IMG/VR virus record: IMGVR_UViG_3300043567_000087
Coordinates: 1 to 32,890 of that record
Source of the DNA: a virus
Reading direction: 5' to 3' (one strand)
Length of the DNA: 32,890 bases
Below, in pieces: positions 16,122 to 32,803 of this stretch (position 1 is its first letter; each line of letters starts with the position of its first letter). The position numbers were made by a program, and so were the translations under genes. The notes beneath the pieces were generated by a model. That model saw only the letters and a program-made list of their open reading frames with translations. It was not told where the DNA came from and ran no database searches.

Positions 16122-17519
16122 TTAAATTGTAGGTAATGTTATTGGTTGTGGTTGAAACTCCCCTAAAGCTTGTGTTCCATTATCTATTTCAGAATCAATC
16201 TGTTCTAATGTAGTATCATCTTCAATAACAGTTCTAGCTATTTGTTTATCAATCTCTTTAGCAAATGTAGCTGATTTAATATTACTTGCTTTAGCTTGTT
16301 GTAATAATTCTAAGTCAGTTGCCCAATCTCTAATGTCAAATGATTCAGGGTATTCAATCTCTCCATCAAATACAGTCTCTTGCCAATCAGCAAATAGTCT
16401 CCAAATTTGTTCTTCAGCAAGTTCCATTAGTTTAGATTTCTCAGATAGTCTTGCATTTAATAATTCAAATTCAGTTCTTAAAGCAATACCAGATTGTACT
16501 CTCTCAGCAGTTGCTCTTAAAGTTCCTACATGAGTTAAACGATTTATTGCTTCTACTTTGTGATTAATTGAAGCTAATACACCATCAAGATTGCTACCAC
16601 TTGGTTGTAAGATATATGGTTTTAAATTAGCATCTAAGTTCTCAGGTATTTCTATAATAGAACCTGCACCAGCACCTGCATCAGTATCTTTTGTTTTAAC
16701 TAATGATGGGTGGTTAGATAGTCTAATGATTTGTTCAATCTCCGAAAATTCATTGTAAATTGCTTTTTGTAAATCTGCTACATCAGTTAAATCAGATACA
16801 CCTAGTCCTCTCATTGGACTTCTTTGATTGTATAAAATAACTGCTGGTATTTTCATTAAAGGATTTGGAAGTGAACTAATTAATTTAGGTTCGTCTCTGC
16901 TAGTTGAAGAAACAAATACACAATCAATTTTATCTAAATACCAAAGCTTATAGTATTCTCCTTCTGCTGTTTGTTCTTCTCTAATTTTTAAATAGTCTAA
17001 GTAATAATAACCAGCATCATTTCTTGTGTAGTGCCAATCAAGTACATTCTCAGGAGTGTAGATGTTTAGGTATGGTCTAATACCTTGATCTAGTTCTTCT
17101 GCTCTAGTCATTACGTTTGTAGATGGCTTATCCATAAGTAACCAAACATGACCATAAATAGAAGCGAATCTTTGTGCTTCTCTCATCAATGCGTTGAACG
17201 ATCTTCCTTCTAAGTCAGCATCATCTTTAAATTGCTCTACTGACATATCTTCAGTTAAAGAACCATATTCTCTTACCGGTTCAACTCTAAATAAAAATGA
17301 TGAGTAAATGTCTATGATGTTACGACAATGATTGTCTAATGGAGTGAAGTTAATTCTTTTATGGTATTCGTTTTCAAATTCTAATTGGTAAGGTTGTAGG
17401 AATTTTCCGTCTTGGTATTCTTTGCCACCTAAATATGATCTGATGAAGTATTCCCATCTTGGCATCATACCTTTGTAGTGTTGATGTTGGTTTTCTATAT
17501 CTTGTCTTGAGTATGCCAT
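16122..17519 (-). CDS. Portal protein (465 aa)
   Basis: A portal of the DUF4055-like kind: an N-terminal wing (MAYSRQDIENQHQHYKGMMP), 'HCRNIIDIYSSFLFRVEPVR', an alpha/beta domain with 'FASIYGHVWLLMDKPST', and the stem/clip helices with 'ATAERVQSGIALRTEFELLN' followed by 'EEQIWRLFADWQE'. Length and position between large terminase and MuF gene are normal. It forms the dodecameric DNA gate. It starts one base from the terminase stop. Confidence 0.88.
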   Translation of the reverse strand: MAYSRQDIENQHQHYKGMMPRWEYFIRSYLGGKEYQDGKFLQPYQLEFENEYHKRINFTPLDNHCRNIIDIYSSFLFRVEPVREYGSLTEDMSVEQFKDDADLEGRSFNALMREAQRFASIYGHVWLLMDKPSTNVMTRAEELDQGIRPYLNIYTPENVLDWHYTRNDAGYYYLDYLKIREEQTAEGEYYKLWYLDKIDCVFVSSTSRDEPKLISSLPNPLMKIPAVILYNQRSPMRGLGVSDLTDVADLQKAIYNEFSEIEQIIRLSNHPSLVKTKDTDAGAGAGSIIEIPENLDANLKPYILQPSGSNLDGVLASINHKVEAINRLTHVGTLRATAERVQSGIALRTEFELLNARLSEKSKLMELAEEQIWRLFADWQETVFDGEIEYPESFDIRDWATDLELLQQAKASNIKSATFAKEIDKQIARTVIEDDTTLEQIDSEIDNGTQALGEFQPQPITLPTI

Positions 17520-24708: not shown

Positions 24709-25092
24709 ATGACAAACAAAATAAAATACACAGGCGAAGAAAACGCACCTTGTTGGACTGCTGACCCACAGGGTTGGGACAAATGGTTCTTAGCTTTTGC
24801 TGGTAGATATACAAAAGAATCTCGTAATTCTTTTTCAGTTGTCTATCCTGAAGCTATAAAATTAATTCAAGAAAATTATTCTAATGATTCTAAAAGAGTT
24901 AAAGGAATTGGTCGTAGAGTAATGATTGGGTTAATTAAAGATAAATTACCTGAAATTAATTCAGGAAGAATATCAAGAGCAATTAGTAAATGTTTACAAA
25001 TGCAAATCTTAGAACTGCATCATCAAACTAAAACTAAGAAGCTTTTGATTAAGGGTCAATACTGGAACACTTATGTAAAGGAGATTAAATGA
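24709..25092 (+). CDS. Hypothetical protein (127 aa)
   Basis: MTNKIKYTGEENAPCWTADP, then GWDKWFLAFAGRYTKES and a helical basic C-terminus (GRRVMIGLIKDKLPEINSGR). No family is recognised. It shares its upstream bases ACATAAAGGGAAA with the first early gene, so the two have closely related ribosome sites. It overlaps the next gene by four bases (ATGA). It is rich in Trp and Lys and probably soluble. It may act with the two flanking early proteins. Confidence 0.68.
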   Translation: MTNKIKYTGEENAPCWTADPQGWDKWFLAFAGRYTKESRNSFSVVYPEAIKLIQENYSNDSKRVKGIGRRVMIGLIKDKLPEINSGRISRAISKCLQMQILELHHQTKTKKLLIKGQYWNTYVKEIK

Positions 25093-25595
25093 CACCATTT
25101 AGAAAAGCACATTTTCCTATTTGGGATTTACCAATTAAATCTAGATTTGAATATTGCAAATCAGAAGCTAAAAGTTTTGGTTTAAATCTTACTTACGAAC
25201 AGTCAAAACAATTTTACAATGAAATGTATAATTGCGAAGTATTTAGAAATGATACTTATGAAGTTAGAGTTTTTCGTGGAGACCAAGCTAACTGGTTGGT
25301 ACATGAAAAAAGTTGGTATGGTATGATTGATTATCTTTCAATTAAAAGAATAGATAAAAAATCTATCCATGACTGGAGACACTTTCAATTAATTAAAAAT
25401 GAATTGGTAAGTGAAACAAGAGAAGCCATTGAACTTTATCCAAGTGAAAAAAGATTAATGGACACAGCAAATCAATATCATCTATTTGTTTTTCCAAAAG
25501 ATTATATTATTCCTTTTGGTTGGACTGAAAGAAGTGTTGCTGTTGAAGAAACAGAGGGTGGTTTAAACAAAGCTGGGCAAAGAAAAATAGCATGA
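25089..25595 (+). CDS. Conserved phage protein, DUF7694-like (168 aa)
   Basis: The C-terminal half carries 'YLSIKRIDKKSIHDWRHFQL' (84-103), 'IKNELVSETREAIELYPSEK' (104-123) and 'RLMDTANQYHLFVF' (124-137), the pattern of the DUF7694 family found across many phages. Function is unknown; the conserved Asp/Arg/Glu/His residues and 'PFGWTERSV' tail suggest an enzyme or a nucleotide-binding protein. The N-terminal part (1-80) is specific. It is coupled to the gene before it and to the mini-gene after it by ATGA overlaps. Confidence 0.72.
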   Translation: MTPFRKAHFPIWDLPIKSRFEYCKSEAKSFGLNLTYEQSKQFYNEMYNCEVFRNDTYEVRVFRGDQANWLVHEKSWYGMIDYLSIKRIDKKSIHDWRHFQLIKNELVSETREAIELYPSEKRLMDTANQYHLFVFPKDYIIPFGWTERSVAVEETEGGLNKAGQRKIA

Positions 25596-25672
25596 AAAAA
25601 CAATTAGCAAAATTACTTAAAGCTTATCATAAGAAATGGGATTGCTTTGGTAACAAAAGAAGGAAGAAGTAA
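25592..25672 (+). CDS. Mini-protein (26 aa)
   Basis: MKKQLAKLLKAYHKKWDCFG then NKRRKK. A very short basic helical peptide. Coding is supported by the ATGA overlap with the gene before and the TAATG overlap with the next. Function unknown. Confidence 0.5.
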   Translation: MKKQLAKLLKAYHKKWDCFGNKRRKK

Positions 25673-25851
25673 TGGTAAGAAAAGACGTAGGAGTAATTTG
25701 TTCTATGAGTTATTACGAGATGAAGTTAATGACTTGTGCTTTATCACGAATACTTTTAGAGAATGAAGTTAGGGGAATTAATACCAAAAAAAGTATTACT
25801 ACTCTAATAAGTAAACTTAACAATATGCTAACAAAACAATGTACGAACTGA
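25672..25851 (+). CDS. Small hypothetical protein (59 aa)
   Basis: MVRKDVGVICSMSYYEMKLM then a helical region (LSRILLENEVRGINTKKSIT) and 'LISKLNNMLTKQCTN'. GGAAGAAGT precedes the ATG. It is part of the chain of coupled mini-genes; the next gene starts inside it (25839). No family is recognised. Confidence 0.62.
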   Translation: MVRKDVGVICSMSYYEMKLMTCALSRILLENEVRGINTKKSITTLISKLNNMLTKQCTN

Positions 25852-25925
25852 TTAACGATTTAGGATTCGCATACTTCTGTTTTGCAGTATTTTTAGCATT
25901 TTTAATATGGGAGAACAATAAATGA
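25839..25925 (+). CDS. Small membrane peptide (28 aa)
   Basis: MYELINDLGFAYFCFAVFLA then FLIWENNK, one transmembrane helix. It overlaps the preceding gene by 13 bases and the next by four (ATGA). Possibly a membrane-acting early peptide; its function is unknown. Confidence 0.5.
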   Translation: MYELINDLGFAYFCFAVFLAFLIWENNK

Positions 25926-26014
25926 CAAGAGAAACTAAAGACGGAATAGGATTTCTGGTAGCATTAATCTTGTTTAATTCAAGTATAGTATTATTCTATT
26001 GGATAATTAATTAA
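25922..26014 (+). CDS. Small membrane peptide (30 aa)
   Basis: MTRETKDGIGFLVALILFNS then SIVLFYWIIN. One transmembrane helix after a charged head. GGGAGAACAATAA precedes the ATG. It resembles the peptide before it in size and layout and the two may act together. Confidence 0.5.
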   Translation: MTRETKDGIGFLVALILFNSSIVLFYWIIN

Positions 26015-26016
26015 CT

Positions 26017-26172
26017 ATGATTATAAAGATTGATCGTGATATTCTGGTGGGTTGTTACGAGGTTTTAAATAAATATTTTATTGTACAAGAGTTTACTTCT
26101 GTGCATAAAATAACACCAAAAGAAAAAAAACTTTATAACGCAGTAGCTAAATTACTTGAAGAAAAAGAATGA
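26017..26172 (+). CDS. Small hypothetical protein (51 aa)
   Basis: MIIKIDRDILVGCYEVLNKY, then 'TSVHKITPKEKKLYNAVAKL' and an acidic/basic end (LEEKE). The helical middle looks like a short HTH-type or coiled region. Its TGA overlaps the ATG of the next gene. Confidence 0.55.
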   Translation: MIIKIDRDILVGCYEVLNKYFIVQEFTSVHKITPKEKKLYNAVAKLLEEKE

Positions 26173-26321
26173 ACTCAGATAAAGAAAAGTTAAGTAAATC
26201 TTTAGGAGAATCTGTAATGAAAGTTAAAATGCAAGAAGCTTTACAGAAGTATAAAGAACGACTAGAAAAACAACAACAGGAGAAGGCAAATGAGAAAAAA
26301 GAAAAACATACATCATCTTAA
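26169..26321 (+). CDS. Small helical protein (50 aa)
   Basis: MNSDKEKLSKSLGESVMKVK then a coiled coil (EALQKYKERLEKQQQEKANE). Starts by ATGA overlap and runs 32 bases into the next gene, whose ribosome site (AGGAGAAGG) lies within it. Function unknown. Confidence 0.5.
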   Translation: MNSDKEKLSKSLGESVMKVKMQEALQKYKERLEKQQQEKANEKKEKHTSS

Positions 26322-26541
26322 AACCAAAACTGACGAACATTATGCAATAGAAGTTGCTCGTCAAATTATCAGCAGAGATTCTTTATATACATTAGTAAAT
26401 TACATTATCTGGGCTTGGGAAGCTAAACCAAAGATAAAAAAAATGGATTTATTAAATGTTATTACCGAAGAATATTTAAACAACCAAAAGGGAAAAAATG
26501 AAAAAACTAATATTGTTAGGTTTAATCCTAAGCTTAACTAG
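26290..26541 (+). CDS. Hypothetical protein (83 aa)
   Basis: MRKKKNIHHLKTKTDEHYAI, then 'EVARQIISRDSLYTLVNYII' and 'WAWEAKPKIKKMDLLNVITE'. Basic N-terminus and helical core. Strong ribosome site (AGGAGAAGGCAA). Its last 14 codons overlap the lipoprotein gene. No family is recognised. Confidence 0.65.
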   Translation: MRKKKNIHHLKTKTDEHYAIEVARQIISRDSLYTLVNYIIWAWEAKPKIKKMDLLNVITEEYLNNQKGKNEKTNIVRFNPKLN

Positions 26542-26806
26542 CTGTTACACATACAAGCCAGTAGTTGATACTTCTGGTAGATCAGGAACTTTTCCTGATG
26601 GTAAATCCGAGAACATAACAAACGATACGATCTTATGCACTAAGTTTGCTGAGAATACTTTATCTGATAGCCAAGAGTTTCAAGCTTGGTTAATTGATAA
26701 TATTTTTCGCCCTGCTTCGTTAGGGGTTGTGTCTAAAGCAGACGATACAAGAAAAAACTATATTAGAAAATGTATGTCCAATCGTGGTCATTCAGTTCTG
26801 AATTAA
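26498..26806 (+). CDS. Small lipoprotein (102 aa)
   Basis: Signal sequence MKKLILLGLILSLTSC with a lipobox LTSC, so Cys16 would be lipidated and the rest exported. After it come 'NITNDTILCTKFAENTLSDS' and a C-terminal 'TRKNYIRKCMSNRGHSVLN' with a CMxxRG motif common at the ends of small bacterial lipoproteins; C48 and C94 could pair. Its position in the early block suggests an envelope role during infection, such as superinfection exclusion (compare phage T5 Llp by position, not sequence). A late spanin role is less likely here. Confidence 0.72.
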   Translation: MKKLILLGLILSLTSCYTYKPVVDTSGRSGTFPDGKSENITNDTILCTKFAENTLSDSQEFQAWLIDNIFRPASLGVVSKADDTRKNYIRKCMSNRGHSVLN

Positions 26807-26810
26807 AAAT

Positions 26811-27044
26811 ATGATAACTGTAAAACAAGAAATAGAACGACTAGTATTAGAATCTGAAAAGAATCCACATATTGTTCAAACTTACTTTGAATACTATTAT
26901 GCTCTTTTAGATCACAGCGATTTAACTTTAGATGAGTTCTATAAGTTATATCCACAATATGATGTTGAAAAAACAGATTCATTATATTGGAAACAATTTA
27001 TGAAACAATGGAAGGAAATAATATGGAAACAAGACAAAGCATAA
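26811..27044 (+). CDS. Hypothetical protein (77 aa)
   Basis: Acidic helical protein: MITVKQEIERLVLESEKNPH then 'YFEYYYALLDHSDLTLDEFY' and 'LYWKQFMKQWKEIIWKQDKA'. It lies between the lipoprotein and the XRE regulator and overlaps the latter by 22 bases. It is rich in Tyr/Trp with no clear family. It has no evident Shine-Dalgarno sequence, so it may be translated at low level. Confidence 0.6.
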   Translation: MITVKQEIERLVLESEKNPHIVQTYFEYYYALLDHSDLTLDEFYKLYPQYDVEKTDSLYWKQFMKQWKEIIWKQDKA

Positions 27045-27325
27045 CAAATATATTAGCAAGTAATATTAAGTTCTTGCGAATTAATACAAAGGTTGAAGAA
27101 CCATTTGGCAAAGTTAAATATATGTCTCAAAGACATTTAGCAGAGTTAATCGGTTCTATTACCCAACAAATAAGTAAATTTGAGTTAGGTAAAAACGAAC
27201 TTGGTGCATCTCAACTTTATAAAATTGCTAAAATCTTTGGAGTATCAGTTGATAGTTTGTATGATACTGAATTAAACAAAAAAGAATTTAGCAAAACAAT
27301 TATGAATGATATATGCTTGATGTAA
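27023..27325 (+). CDS. XRE-family HTH transcriptional regulator (100 aa)
   Basis: Classic Cro/C1-type helix-turn-helix: 'NIKFLRINTK' first helix, 'MSQRHLAELIGSITQQISKF' (34-53), 'ELGKNELGASQLYKIAKIFG' and 'VSVDSLYD' to close the domain. The start at 27023 is preceded by GGAAGGAAATAAT; an upstream in-frame ATG (26987) lies within the gene before. It is a single-domain repressor or Cro-like protein. Candidate targets are the inverted repeats at 23880-23909 and 312-326. With no integrase present it may control a lytic switch. Confidence 0.82.
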   Translation: METRQSITNILASNIKFLRINTKVEEPFGKVKYMSQRHLAELIGSITQQISKFELGKNELGASQLYKIAKIFGVSVDSLYDTELNKKEFSKTIMNDICLM

Positions 27326-27401: not shown

Positions 27402-28136
27402 ATGGAAGAAATCAAACTATACGAAGGCAAAGAAACATTATTCTTTGACCCAATTCAACATCAATACTTTTGGAATGATGAACAGTTGCCTAGTGCCACC
27501 GGCATAACCAAATTATTGACACCGGCAAACGTGATCGGAATGTGGTCGGCTAAGATATGTTCTGAAGAATTTAAGAAGTTAATTAGAGCAGGTGTTAGTT
27601 ATGATGAGATTGAATTAATTAAGATTGCAGATCAAATCAAAAAAGCACCAAATCAGAATATGGCAGATGCTGGGTCTGTTGGCACAAACGTACACAATTT
27701 AATTGAAGATTATATTCACAAAGGAATTACTCCTGAGATTATAAATCCTGAAATTAAAAAATCATTTGGTAAGTTTAAAGAATGGTATGACAAGCAAGAT
27801 GGTTTAGAGATTGTATTTACTGAACGTAAAGTGCTAAGTCGTATTCATAAATTTACTGGTACTCTTGATGCTATATTTAAAAACAAATCAGGAGAGCATA
27901 TAATTTATGATTGGAAGTCATCATCAGGAATAAGAGATTCTATGTTAGTGCAAATCTACCTTTATAAGATTTGTGTTAAAGAAGAACTTGGAATTGATGT
28001 CAAAAAAGGCATCATAGTTAATTGTACCAAAACTGGAAAATTAAATATTAAGGAATTTCCAATCGGAGATGCACAGGAAGAAGTGGCGATTGCCTGTCTA
28101 AAAATGTATCGCTACCTAAACAATAAGGAGAAGTAA
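27402..28136 (+). CDS. RecB-like PD-(D/E)XK exonuclease (244 aa)
   Basis: Shows the PDDEXK_1 / Cas4-RecB nuclease order: 'AGSVGTNVHNLIEDYI' (90-105, with H98), 'KFTGTLDAIF' (150-159, D156), 'IIYDWKSSSG' (167-176, D170-x-K172) and 'MLVQIYLYKI' (181-190, the RecB-type QxxxY). Ribosome site AAAGGGAAGG. It should degrade linear DNA ends to give single strands for recombination or for host DNA breakdown. It is followed by a probable single-strand-binding protein, suggesting an end-processing pair like lambda Exo/Beta or T7 gp6/gp2.5. Confidence 0.85.
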   Translation: MEEIKLYEGKETLFFDPIQHQYFWNDEQLPSATGITKLLTPANVIGMWSAKICSEEFKKLIRAGVSYDEIELIKIADQIKKAPNQNMADAGSVGTNVHNLIEDYIHKGITPEIINPEIKKSFGKFKEWYDKQDGLEIVFTERKVLSRIHKFTGTLDAIFKNKSGEHIIYDWKSSSGIRDSMLVQIYLYKICVKEELGIDVKKGIIVNCTKTGKLNIKEFPIGDAQEEVAIACLKMYRYLNNKEK

Positions 28137-29920: not shown

Positions 29921-30150
29921 TGAATCGTATTTGAAATATCGTCATAATAATCAAACCAGCTACATTCTTTTAATTCCCACTCAACACTAGTAACTCTTAA
30001 TTTTTTAACTTGTTTTAATGAAGCTAGAAATGAACAAGAGTTTGTAAAATTATCATTATCAAAAAATCTAACATGAGCAATATCTTCTTTAACATTATCA
30101 GGGTTTACCTTTACAAAGTTTATTGCATAGGTAACTAGATAGAAATTCAT
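29917..30150 (-). CDS. Hypothetical protein (77 aa)
   Basis: MNFYLVTYAINFVKVNPDNV then 'EDIAHVRFFDNDNFTNSCSF' and 'VTSVEWELKECSWFDYYDDI'. Probably an alpha/beta fold. It is the last gene of the holin block, coupled to the holin gene by a four-base overlap, and its TAG overlaps the TAA of the converging nuclease gene. No family is recognised. Confidence 0.62.
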   Translation of the reverse strand: MNFYLVTYAINFVKVNPDNVKEDIAHVRFFDNDNFTNSCSFLASLKQVKKLRVTSVEWELKECSWFDYYDDISNTIH

Positions 30151-30527
30151 TTTTTAGTAAATGCGTCAATGCTTGGTTTTAATCCGTAGATCGCACCAAA
30201 AATACCAACGATTAACCATTGATACCAAGAAGGAAACTTACCAAAGTAATCAAAGAACAAATCTAGTTTAGCTTTAATATTAATGTCATCACTAATGACT
30301 GCATAAGATAAAACAAGAATTGGAATACAAACAACTATTAAAACAAATTCATCTTTCCATGATTTGTCTTGTTGGTCGTAAACATCTCTTTGATATTCAA
30401 TTTCACCACTAGCCATTCGTTCATAGTGTCTTTTTTCTGCTTCTGATTCTAATAGTTCTGATTGTTTGTGGTTTTTATAAATCTCAGCACCAGTTTTAAA
30501 AATAGTTGGTATTAGATTCCACCACAT
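30147..30527 (-). CDS. Holin, GTA-type (126 aa)
   Basis: N-terminal amphipathic helix (MWWNLIPTIFKTGAEIYKNH) and coiled region, then 'DQQDKSWKDEFVLIVVCIPI' leading into a transmembrane segment (VLIVVCIPILVLSYAVI, about 62-78), and a second (WYQWLIVGIFGAIYGLKPS, about 102-120). The 'SWKDEF' and 'P.WYQW...G...G' features match the GTA holin 3TM family. It should form the lesion that releases or activates the lysis enzymes. It follows the two beta-rich paralogues by one base. Confidence 0.75.
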   Translation of the reverse strand: MWWNLIPTIFKTGAEIYKNHKQSELLESEAEKRHYERMASGEIEYQRDVYDQQDKSWKDEFVLIVVCIPILVLSYAVISDDINIKAKLDLFFDYFGKFPSWYQWLIVGIFGAIYGLKPSIDAFTKK

Positions 30528-31247: not shown

Positions 31248-31457
31248 TTACTTACCTTTAGATGAATCTATCAGTAGTTCTATGTAGTGTTTAGCTTTTT
31301 CCAAGTCTTGAACACCACCCTTCTCTTTAAATCTTAAAATATACTTTATGATATTTCCTTCTACAAATCCAATATTATTTTTGATGATAAATTCTACTGG
31401 TTGGATTTTGTAATTCTTGTAATGGCTTCCACCAACTTGCTTTTTAAATGACTTCAT
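31248..31457 (-). CDS. DUF3310-like protein (69 aa)
   Basis: After MKSFKKQVGGSHYKNYKIQP comes VEFIIKNNIGFVEGNIIKYI and 'GGVQDLEKAKHYIELLID', a near-perfect DUF3310 signature (GGSHY...Q..E.......GN..KY..R...K.G..DL.KA..Y...L). The family is common in phages and related to nucleotide-kinase-associated proteins, but its activity is not settled. I chose the ATG at 31457 with GGAAGA upstream; an ATG at 31472 is also open. It overlaps the M15 peptidase gene. Confidence 0.82.
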   Translation of the reverse strand: MKSFKKQVGGSHYKNYKIQPVEFIIKNNIGFVEGNIIKYILRFKEKGGVQDLEKAKHYIELLIDSSKGK

Positions 31458-31887
31458 AAACTGTTCTTCCATTAGCTTTGTATGCTCTTAAATACATCTT
31501 CCGGTTACTATTGCAATAACTGATATGAACCCACCCTGAGTTAATTTTATCTTTTTCCCAGAACTCTAATATGACTTGATCGTATTCTAAATTATTAACT
31601 ACCCAATCTGCAAGTTCTTTATTAGGCACTCCTAAGACTTCGCAATCAACTGCCATACCAAGACAATGCTGACTCTTAATTGATGAACCTATCTTCAAAC
31701 AAAGTTCTGGTGATCTATAACCACTCGTAATTTTTATATCTCCAAAATGATTTACAATAGGATTAATAACTTCTTGGATTAATGTTTGTAGATTAATTAA
31801 AATTTCATCTGTTGGAGTATTATCTATTCCAAGTCTTGTAGCTGTTTCTGAAAACAGTAATTCTTTTAAACTAACTTGCCTATCCAT
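31444..31887 (-). CDS. Peptidase M15 (D-Ala-D-Ala carboxypeptidase-like) endolysin (147 aa)
   Basis: M15A motifs: 'ITSGYRSPELCLKIG' (53-67), 'SSIKSQHCLGMAVDCEV' (68-84) with zinc ligands H74 and D81, and 'SGWVHISYC' (117-125) with H121. The whole chain is one catalytic domain of normal length with no signal or binding domain. It cleaves peptide cross-links in peptidoglycan. It would need a holin to reach the wall; a GTA-type holin gene follows in the same direction. It complements the membrane-anchored glucosaminidase encoded at 21544-22161. Confidence 0.85.
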   Translation of the reverse strand: MDRQVSLKELLFSETATRLGIDNTPTDEILINLQTLIQEVINPIVNHFGDIKITSGYRSPELCLKIGSSIKSQHCLGMAVDCEVLGVPNKELADWVVNNLEYDQVILEFWEKDKINSGWVHISYCNSNRKMYLRAYKANGRTVYEVI

Positions 31888-32614: not shown

Positions 32615-32803
32615 TTACTTAGCTAAAAATATTGTGATTAGAACTAACGACAAAGAACCAAGCCCACAAAGAATCGCCCAATACAAATTAGTCATTTGTC
32701 TTTCCAGCTTTGATACTGAAGAAGATAAAACTTTAACTGAGTTTTTAAGTCCTGTGATATGCCCCTTTAATATTATTAGTTCTTCGTTGGTAGTTCTTGT
32801 CAT
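32615..32803 (-). CDS. XhlA-like small membrane protein (62 aa)
   Basis: MTRTTNEELIILKGHITGLK, a coiled-coil head (NSVKVLSSSVSKLERQM), then one transmembrane segment (LYWAILCGLGSLSLVLITIF). This layout is that of XhlA haemolysin-type lysis accessories. It lies before the phosphoesterase and M15 genes and may assist membrane disruption or serve as a spanin or holin partner. It crosses the contig join; the left copy is cut at position 1. No ribosome site is apparent. Confidence 0.62.
   Translation of the reverse strand: MTRTTNEELIILKGHITGLKNSVKVLSSSVSKLERQMTNLYWAILCGLGSLSLVLITIFLAK

Follow-up and report, generated by a model that had tools for sequence, protein, structure and literature searches.

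The question raised by positions 25592-26321 of the window, by which we mean the whole 32890-base stretch of an IMG/VR virus record, is whether six very short open reading frames that follow one another almost without spacing are genes and what such a run would do for a phage. The sequence-only reading had described six tandem ORFs of 26-59 codons at this place, and all six were found, on the + strand and with ATG starts. From the preceding 168-aa gene onwards the joins in the window are -4 (ATGA), -1 (TAATG), -13, -4 (ATGA), +2 and -4 (ATGA). The overlaps had been described correctly, with the exception of the join between ORF4 and ORF5, which is a 2-nt gap. The chain also runs past the six ORFs, as the 168-aa gene before them and an 83-aa and a 102-aa gene after them are joined by overlaps too. 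A chain score was defined as the longest run of ATG ORFs of at least 25 codons with joins of -20 to +5. The score was 6 in the window, compared with 3 once, 2 in 37 cases and 0 or 1 in the rest of 2000 dinucleotide shuffles, and with at most 3 in 618 other 730-nt stretches of the window on both strands. The six-ORF chain is far beyond chance.

The phage was placed by its portal protein (16122-17519, - strand), the structural gene compared, which shows 56-57% identity, across 98-100% of its length, with those of Pelagibacter phages HTVC202P, HTVC026P, HTVC111P and HTVC112P and 48% identity with that of Dishui Lake phage DSL-LC06. By this gene the window phage is akin to the HTVC026P/HTVC111P-type pelagiphages, and its host, assigned by portal similarity, is probably a freshwater bacterium related to the oceanic SAR11. 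The label freshwater was chosen because one relative comes from Dishui Lake, and is in part a habitat that we presume. A host search for relatives of ORF1 and ORF2 in genome contigs returned none. Portal, tape-measure-like and tail-like genes occupy the - strand. The + strand from 24068 carries the chain and its neighbours, then an HTH regulator (27023-27325, +; Pfam HTH_3, E 3.3e-08) and then a PD-(D/E)XK nuclease (27402-28136, +; Pfam PDDEXK_1, E 3.9e-05). In the lambda PL operon small accessory genes likewise share their strand with a regulator and an exonuclease; the likeness is one of arrangement, and the genes of the window are far smaller and overlap.

The 168-aa gene (25089-25595, +) encodes a DUF7694 domain (Pfam E 4.7e-13; phrog_7839, 2e-14) and meets ORF1 in an ATGA join; relatives of its product were seen in phages of Rhizobium, Agrobacterium and Ruegeria. 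ORF1 to ORF6 (m1 to m6) are all on the + strand. ORF1 (25592-25672) encodes a strongly basic, lysine-rich peptide of 26 aa with the core KLLKAYHKKWDCFG, and ORF2 (25672-25851) a 59-aa protein predicted to form a two-helix hairpin (AlphaFold2 mean pLDDT 81.6). ORF3 (25839-25925), which overlaps the end of ORF2 and has no Shine-Dalgarno sequence, and ORF4 (25922-26014), which has a strong one within the end of ORF3, encode single-span membrane peptides of 28 and 30 aa. Each has one hydrophobic segment (18-residue hydropathy maxima 1.99 and 2.32), in agreement with the two single-helix membrane peptides that had been proposed. The first third of ORF4 and its relatives (MTRETKDGIG) is nearly constant, and the membrane part falls into several distinct types. 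ORF5 (26017-26172), again with no Shine-Dalgarno sequence, encodes a second predicted two-helix hairpin of 51 aa (mean pLDDT 82.5) and ORF6 (26169-26321) a charged protein of 50 aa with two allele classes. Paralogy was considered for ORF2 and ORF5 and for ORF3 and ORF4, but hhalign detected no similarity within either pair. The 83-aa gene (26290-26541, +) overlaps ORF6 by 32 nt (20-35 nt in relatives) and has a strong Shine-Dalgarno sequence. It is followed by the 102-aa gene (26498-26806, +) for a predicted lipoprotein (LSLTSC) that, by sequence and HMM matches, is common to cultured pelagiphages (33-45% identity to HTVC202P, 112P, 026P and 111P; HMM E 1.8e-36 to 6.7e-24); in HTVC202P its counterpart likewise has an HTH gene and a nuclease nearby. 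The usual floor for gene calling is 30 codons. The six had been considered too small for usual gene calling, which applies to ORFs 1, 3 and 4 (26-30 aa) and hardly to those of 50-59 aa.

Conservation of the frames in related phages, the check that the sequence-only reading had named, was evaluated by tblastn over fetched loci. ORF2 and ORF6 occurred together in 68 loci, which gave 37 distinct chains once duplicates with identical ORF2-ORF6 DNA had been merged; these two genes are present in all 37 by construction. ORF4 and ORF5 were found in all 37 as well, ORF3 in 32, ORF1 in 31 and the 83-aa gene in 29, and 27 chains had all six ORFs. At L077, L067, L124 and the L125/L088 contig, where ORF3 had no tblastn match, a 28-aa or HMM-matched ORF stands in its place. 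Order, frames and joints are kept across the 37 relatives and all starts are ATG. Median dN/dS for ORFs 1 to 6 was 0.16, 0.16, 0.23, 0.39, 0.30 and 0.39, pairs with fewer than 5 changes or with pS above 0.7 being omitted. Correspondingly, pN was below pS in 369/372, 546/549, 383/387, 545/545, 571/571 and 618/619 compared pairs, that is in at least 98.9% for every ORF, sequence pairs being non-independent. Purifying selection, the absence of which had been named as a reason to doubt the genes, is thus present in each. The ORF's own frame is open in all loci. Judged by frame, joint and substitution pattern, all six ORFs are real protein-coding genes. A run of ORFs arisen by chance can be discounted: the segment is AT-rich, short ORFs are common and the shortest genes often have open antisense frames (the -1 frame in 29/38 loci for ORF4 and 25/38 for ORF6), but no shuffle linked more than half the observed number of ORFs, for five ORFs no locus has the +1 or +2 frame open and for ORF3 1/33 does, and both conservation and dN/dS contradict it.

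The joints are conserved too. In the relatives the 168-aa gene meets ORF1 at -4 in 5/5 cases with both genes, ORF1 meets ORF2 at -1, -4 or -19 in 31/31 and ORF3 meets ORF4 at -4 in 29/32. The ORF3 start falls within the 3' end of ORF2 in 32/32, ORF5 starts 0-2 nt past the ORF4 stop in 37/37 and ORF5 and ORF6 overlap in 37/37. Shine-Dalgarno sequences were scored as anti-Shine-Dalgarno binding energy with a threshold at or below -4; the background rate of reaching it was 14% among 1500 random positions and 13% among 92 internal ATGs. An independent Shine-Dalgarno sequence is present for ORF4 (92% of 37 loci) and for the 83-aa and 102-aa genes (100% of 29 and 35 loci), mixed for ORF2 (66% of 35), ORF6 (51% of 37) and ORF1 (39% of 31), rare for ORF3 (12% of 32) and absent for ORF5 (0% of 37). 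As ORF3 rarely and ORF5 never has one, their translation probably depends on ribosomes terminating at ORF2 and ORF4. A promoter scan of the chain region found 31 candidates against a shuffle mean of 35.3, which is no enrichment.

Coupled overlapping genes are already known. PMC10666635 states that termination-reinitiation needs such short stop-start distances and that gene pairs with short overlaps are tightly coupled in E. coli and Haloferax; other work cited there puts coupling tenfold lower at +3 nt than at -4, for which reason the +2 gap between ORF4 and ORF5 may couple less well. Like the chain, the coupled pairs known from work on termination-reinitiation (Huber et al., PMC6728339; PMC10666635) have -4 or -1 joins or gaps of a few nt and include downstream genes with no Shine-Dalgarno sequence. 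The present case differs from these pairs in that six mini-genes of a phage stand in a row, Shine-Dalgarno sequences are used in alternation and the coupling is predicted from sequence. PMC10666635 also associates short overlaps with subunits of one complex; the alleles of ORF4 and ORF5 are nearly uncorrelated (rho 0.13-0.19), which speaks against an obligate ORF4-ORF5 complex.

All genes of the chain would be read from one messenger. On it, the genes that have a Shine-Dalgarno sequence of their own (ORF2, ORF4 and the 83-aa and 102-aa genes) would load ribosomes afresh and ORF3 and ORF5 would be made mainly by ribosomes that have just finished ORF2 and ORF4, by termination-reinitiation. A mini-gene spanning an ATG to a stop that overlaps the next ATG could drop into such a chain without disturbing its expression, because the end of a gene carries the ribosome signal or the stop for the next.

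Comparison of the relatives showed where the chain changes. DNA identity between L041 and the window is 95-99% through ORF5 and 52% in ORF6, L096 is 99% identical in ORF5 and 73% in ORF4, and L111 is 96% identical in ORF4 and 60% in ORF5. The divergence of the two halves of one gene was correlated with a rho of 0.56-0.77 (0.46 for the tiny ORF1; L074 omitted). Across the successive joints from ORF1/ORF2 to that between the 83-aa and 102-aa genes, rho was 0.48, 0.57, 0.61, 0.13, 0.41, 0.14 and 0.34, the lowest values being those across ORF4/ORF5 (0.13 between adjoining halves; whole genes gave 0.19) and across ORF6 and the 83-aa gene. For whole genes (L074, L087 and L108 omitted) ORF3 and ORF4 were the most correlated of the neighbour pairs tested (rho 0.60, n=31). 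The joints among ORFs 1 to 4 lie within the range of intragenic rho and breakpoints are therefore not equally frequent at every joint; in these correlations, the later joints show clear exchange and the first three give no such signal.

Whole genes come and go as well. The ATGA joint of ORF3 and ORF4 (25922-25925, +) is the site of one or two extra mini-genes in four relatives, namely a 50-aa ORF with paired cysteines in L065, L106 and L132 and two ORFs of 54 and 51 aa in L005. Every new join made by these inserts is -4 or -1, and no intergenic space is left. The insert DNA of L065 and L106 is 99.3% identical while their ORF4 sequences are 70% identical; a value of 0.526 from a gapless comparison of the ORF2-ORF3 block was disregarded, as its alignment may be out of register. 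ORF1 is replaced by a 115-aa ORF in L009 and by a 29-aa ORF in L011, and in L024 a relative of the 168-aa gene joins at -4 straight to a gene for a protein of 149 aa, one end of which is lipoprotein-like. The 168-aa gene was found in 33 loci, with part or all of the chain in 11 and none of it in the stretch examined in 22, some of which end soon after. As read from these alignments, related phages swap, add and remove single mini-genes at stop/start joints and the chain is a mosaic.

Phage morons typically carry their own promoter and terminator. Phage gene mosaicism is already known, and Pope et al. 2011 (PMC3029335) likewise describe single genes that are present or absent between relatives and exchange near gene boundaries. 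Morons are described there as an ORF with flanking sequence placed between genes, whereas the present mini-genes fill the joint wholly and use the starts and stops of their neighbours.

ORF1 extends beyond this group of phages. An alignment search gave 129 confirmed places, 80 of which were kept, and the motif, where found, is a short stand-alone ORF. In 71 distinct downstream contexts, the window included, ORF2 comes next in 44 and something else in 27, a few of the latter being cut by contig ends. A joined membrane mini-ORF follows ORF1 in 18/23 testable contexts of the second kind (those with less than 200 nt downstream excluded), compared with 27/281 control gene ends (Fisher 8e-13, a value that overstates independence because the 23 contexts include close relatives). 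The exonuclease near ORF1 in L180 is 47-51% identical to those of HTVC023P, HTVC027P and 023Pt_psg01, and the surrounding gene order resembles that of HTVC027P, in the fetched stretch of which no ORF1 was found. By these neighbouring genes, a phage lineage unrelated to the window phage and akin to HTVC023P/HTVC027P also has ORF1. Relatives of ORF3 occur in that lineage too (L163, L166, L168, L169, L197 and L198; E 4e-5 and 8e-5 in two). The neighbourhood of ORF1 there is itself a run of joined mini-genes, and small zinc-ribbon-like proteins with paired cysteines (for example CPECKGNGY) were seen near it (L166 5352-5597, L194 5399-5641 and L164 4822-4986).

These contexts bear on the suggestion that some of the frames, ORF1 above all, are cis-acting translated leaders that tune the next gene and are not free proteins. 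A 26-aa, lysine-rich ORF tightly joined to its successor would suit that role; selection acts at the amino-acid level in each ORF, however, the ORF1 core is conserved even in front of a very different gene and membrane segments stay membrane segments, which makes a leader function very improbable.

The cultured relatives resemble the window in part. HTVC026P, HTVC111P, HTVC112P and HTVC202P share a 56% identical portal and the same lipoprotein near an HTH regulator but are without ORFs 1-6 by HMM; HTVC202P and HTVC111P carry other, unannotated mini-ORFs in that region. Among these are membrane mini-ORFs of 31-32 aa with stop/start overlaps (HTVC202P, L127, 3396-3494, - strand; HTVC111P, L129, 3274-3369, - strand) that end in TAIMLGCLHVWS plus 1-2 residues, and a similar membrane segment forms the end of gp07 of HTVC112P. 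A conserved ORF of 50-51 aa in another frame lies within genes annotated as hypothetical, immediately upstream of the lipoprotein (L127 2861-3016, -; L129 2669-2824, -; L130 2563-2715, +) and looks like an overlooked overlapping gene. Most non-structural genes in the SAR11-group phage records examined are named only 'hypothetical protein'.

Searches of PHROGs, Pfam and NCBIfam, anti-defence families included, gave no match with a meaningful E-value for the mini-ORFs scanned (ORFs 1, 2, 5 and 6 in the case of Pfam). The hairpins of ORF2 and ORF5 had no Foldseek match in the PDB below E 2.0; ribosomal proteins were among the best ORF2 matches, which is typical of a short hairpin and was rejected as homology. 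In a PDB sequence search ORF1 resembled 14 residues of ribosomal protein uS9 (E 0.15) and the best ORF2 match had E 0.29, both of which were treated as chance. Phage isolates gave no tblastn match to ORF2 or to the long form of ORF1, although the low-complexity filter may hide the lysine-rich ORF1. An HMM scan of nine GenBank records (five whole, four partial) found nothing better than E 0.04 for ORFs 1-6, bar one ORF5 match (E 0.0025) inside a long gene of HTVC023P.

The two adjacent single-span peptides and the lipoprotein close by (26498-26806) invite a reading as a lysis module in which they are holin, antiholin and a spanin-like protein and the other products are helpers. The endolysin, an M15 peptidase recognized by Pfam (31444-31887), is about 5 kb away on the opposite strand and not beside the chain, which makes this less likely. 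It is near two membrane proteins on that same strand, at 30147-30527 (hydropathy maximum 2.99) and at 32615-32803 (62 aa, by hydropathy). The cultured relatives have the lipoprotein without ORFs 1-6, moreover, and the types of ORF3 and ORF4 vary strongly, and we consider a lysis function improbable.

Alternatively, the module may serve mainly to protect the infected cell from other phages, with ORF3 and ORF4 pairing in the membrane as a superinfection-exclusion complex whose alleles turn over to match competing phages. The correlation of ORF3 with ORF4, the highest of the neighbour pairs, and the matching of their types within L006/L114/L116 and within the L077/L124/L125 group are in its favour, as are the membrane mini-genes that follow ORF1 in another lineage. 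Such a correlation can also stem from shared descent and no match to known exclusion proteins was obtained, so that a dedicated exclusion pair appears rather unlikely.

The reading to which we lean, with slightly better than even confidence, is that these translated microprotein genes form an exchangeable array in the early, non-structural transcription unit of a SAR11-type phage. We infer both the timing and an early host-interaction function of the microproteins, on account of their place, size, membrane segments and turnover. The products would comprise small binders together with membrane peptides and would affect the host shortly after infection, possibly by inhibition of a host process or defence or by superinfection exclusion; action on the host would explain the turnover of the mini-genes and the sharing of ORF1 between unrelated phages. 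The class of host-takeover and anti-defence proteins that had been suggested for such genes is plausible given the strand shared with the HTH and nuclease genes, the mosaic accessory set and the member common to an unrelated lineage, and it gained no curated anti-defence match. More speculatively, the joints may be docking sites at which phages of one host clade pool micro-cassettes of 25-60 codons, each running from an ATG to a stop that overlaps the next ATG. Such cassettes would be promoterless and expressed by coupling and would give a fast-changing anti-host array, ORF1 plus a membrane mini-gene being traded between unrelated phage families; we regard this as possible and hold it tentatively.

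No paper on such mini-gene chains in pelagiphages was found in the open-licence literature. What is new is the coding evidence for these families, the extra mini-genes exactly at a stop/start joint and the finding of ORF1 in common between phage lineages. The coding evidence is solid for six mini-gene families that matched nothing in the curated libraries searched, and three of the six do not exceed the customary size floor. Occurring in two states, with additional mini-genes and without them, the ORF3/ORF4 joint provides a natural experiment on translational coupling. The arrangement offers phages a simple route to add or swap tiny genes without breaking expression, and should the products turn out to act on the host, the joints would mark where to seek counter-defence and takeover peptides in SAR11-group phages.
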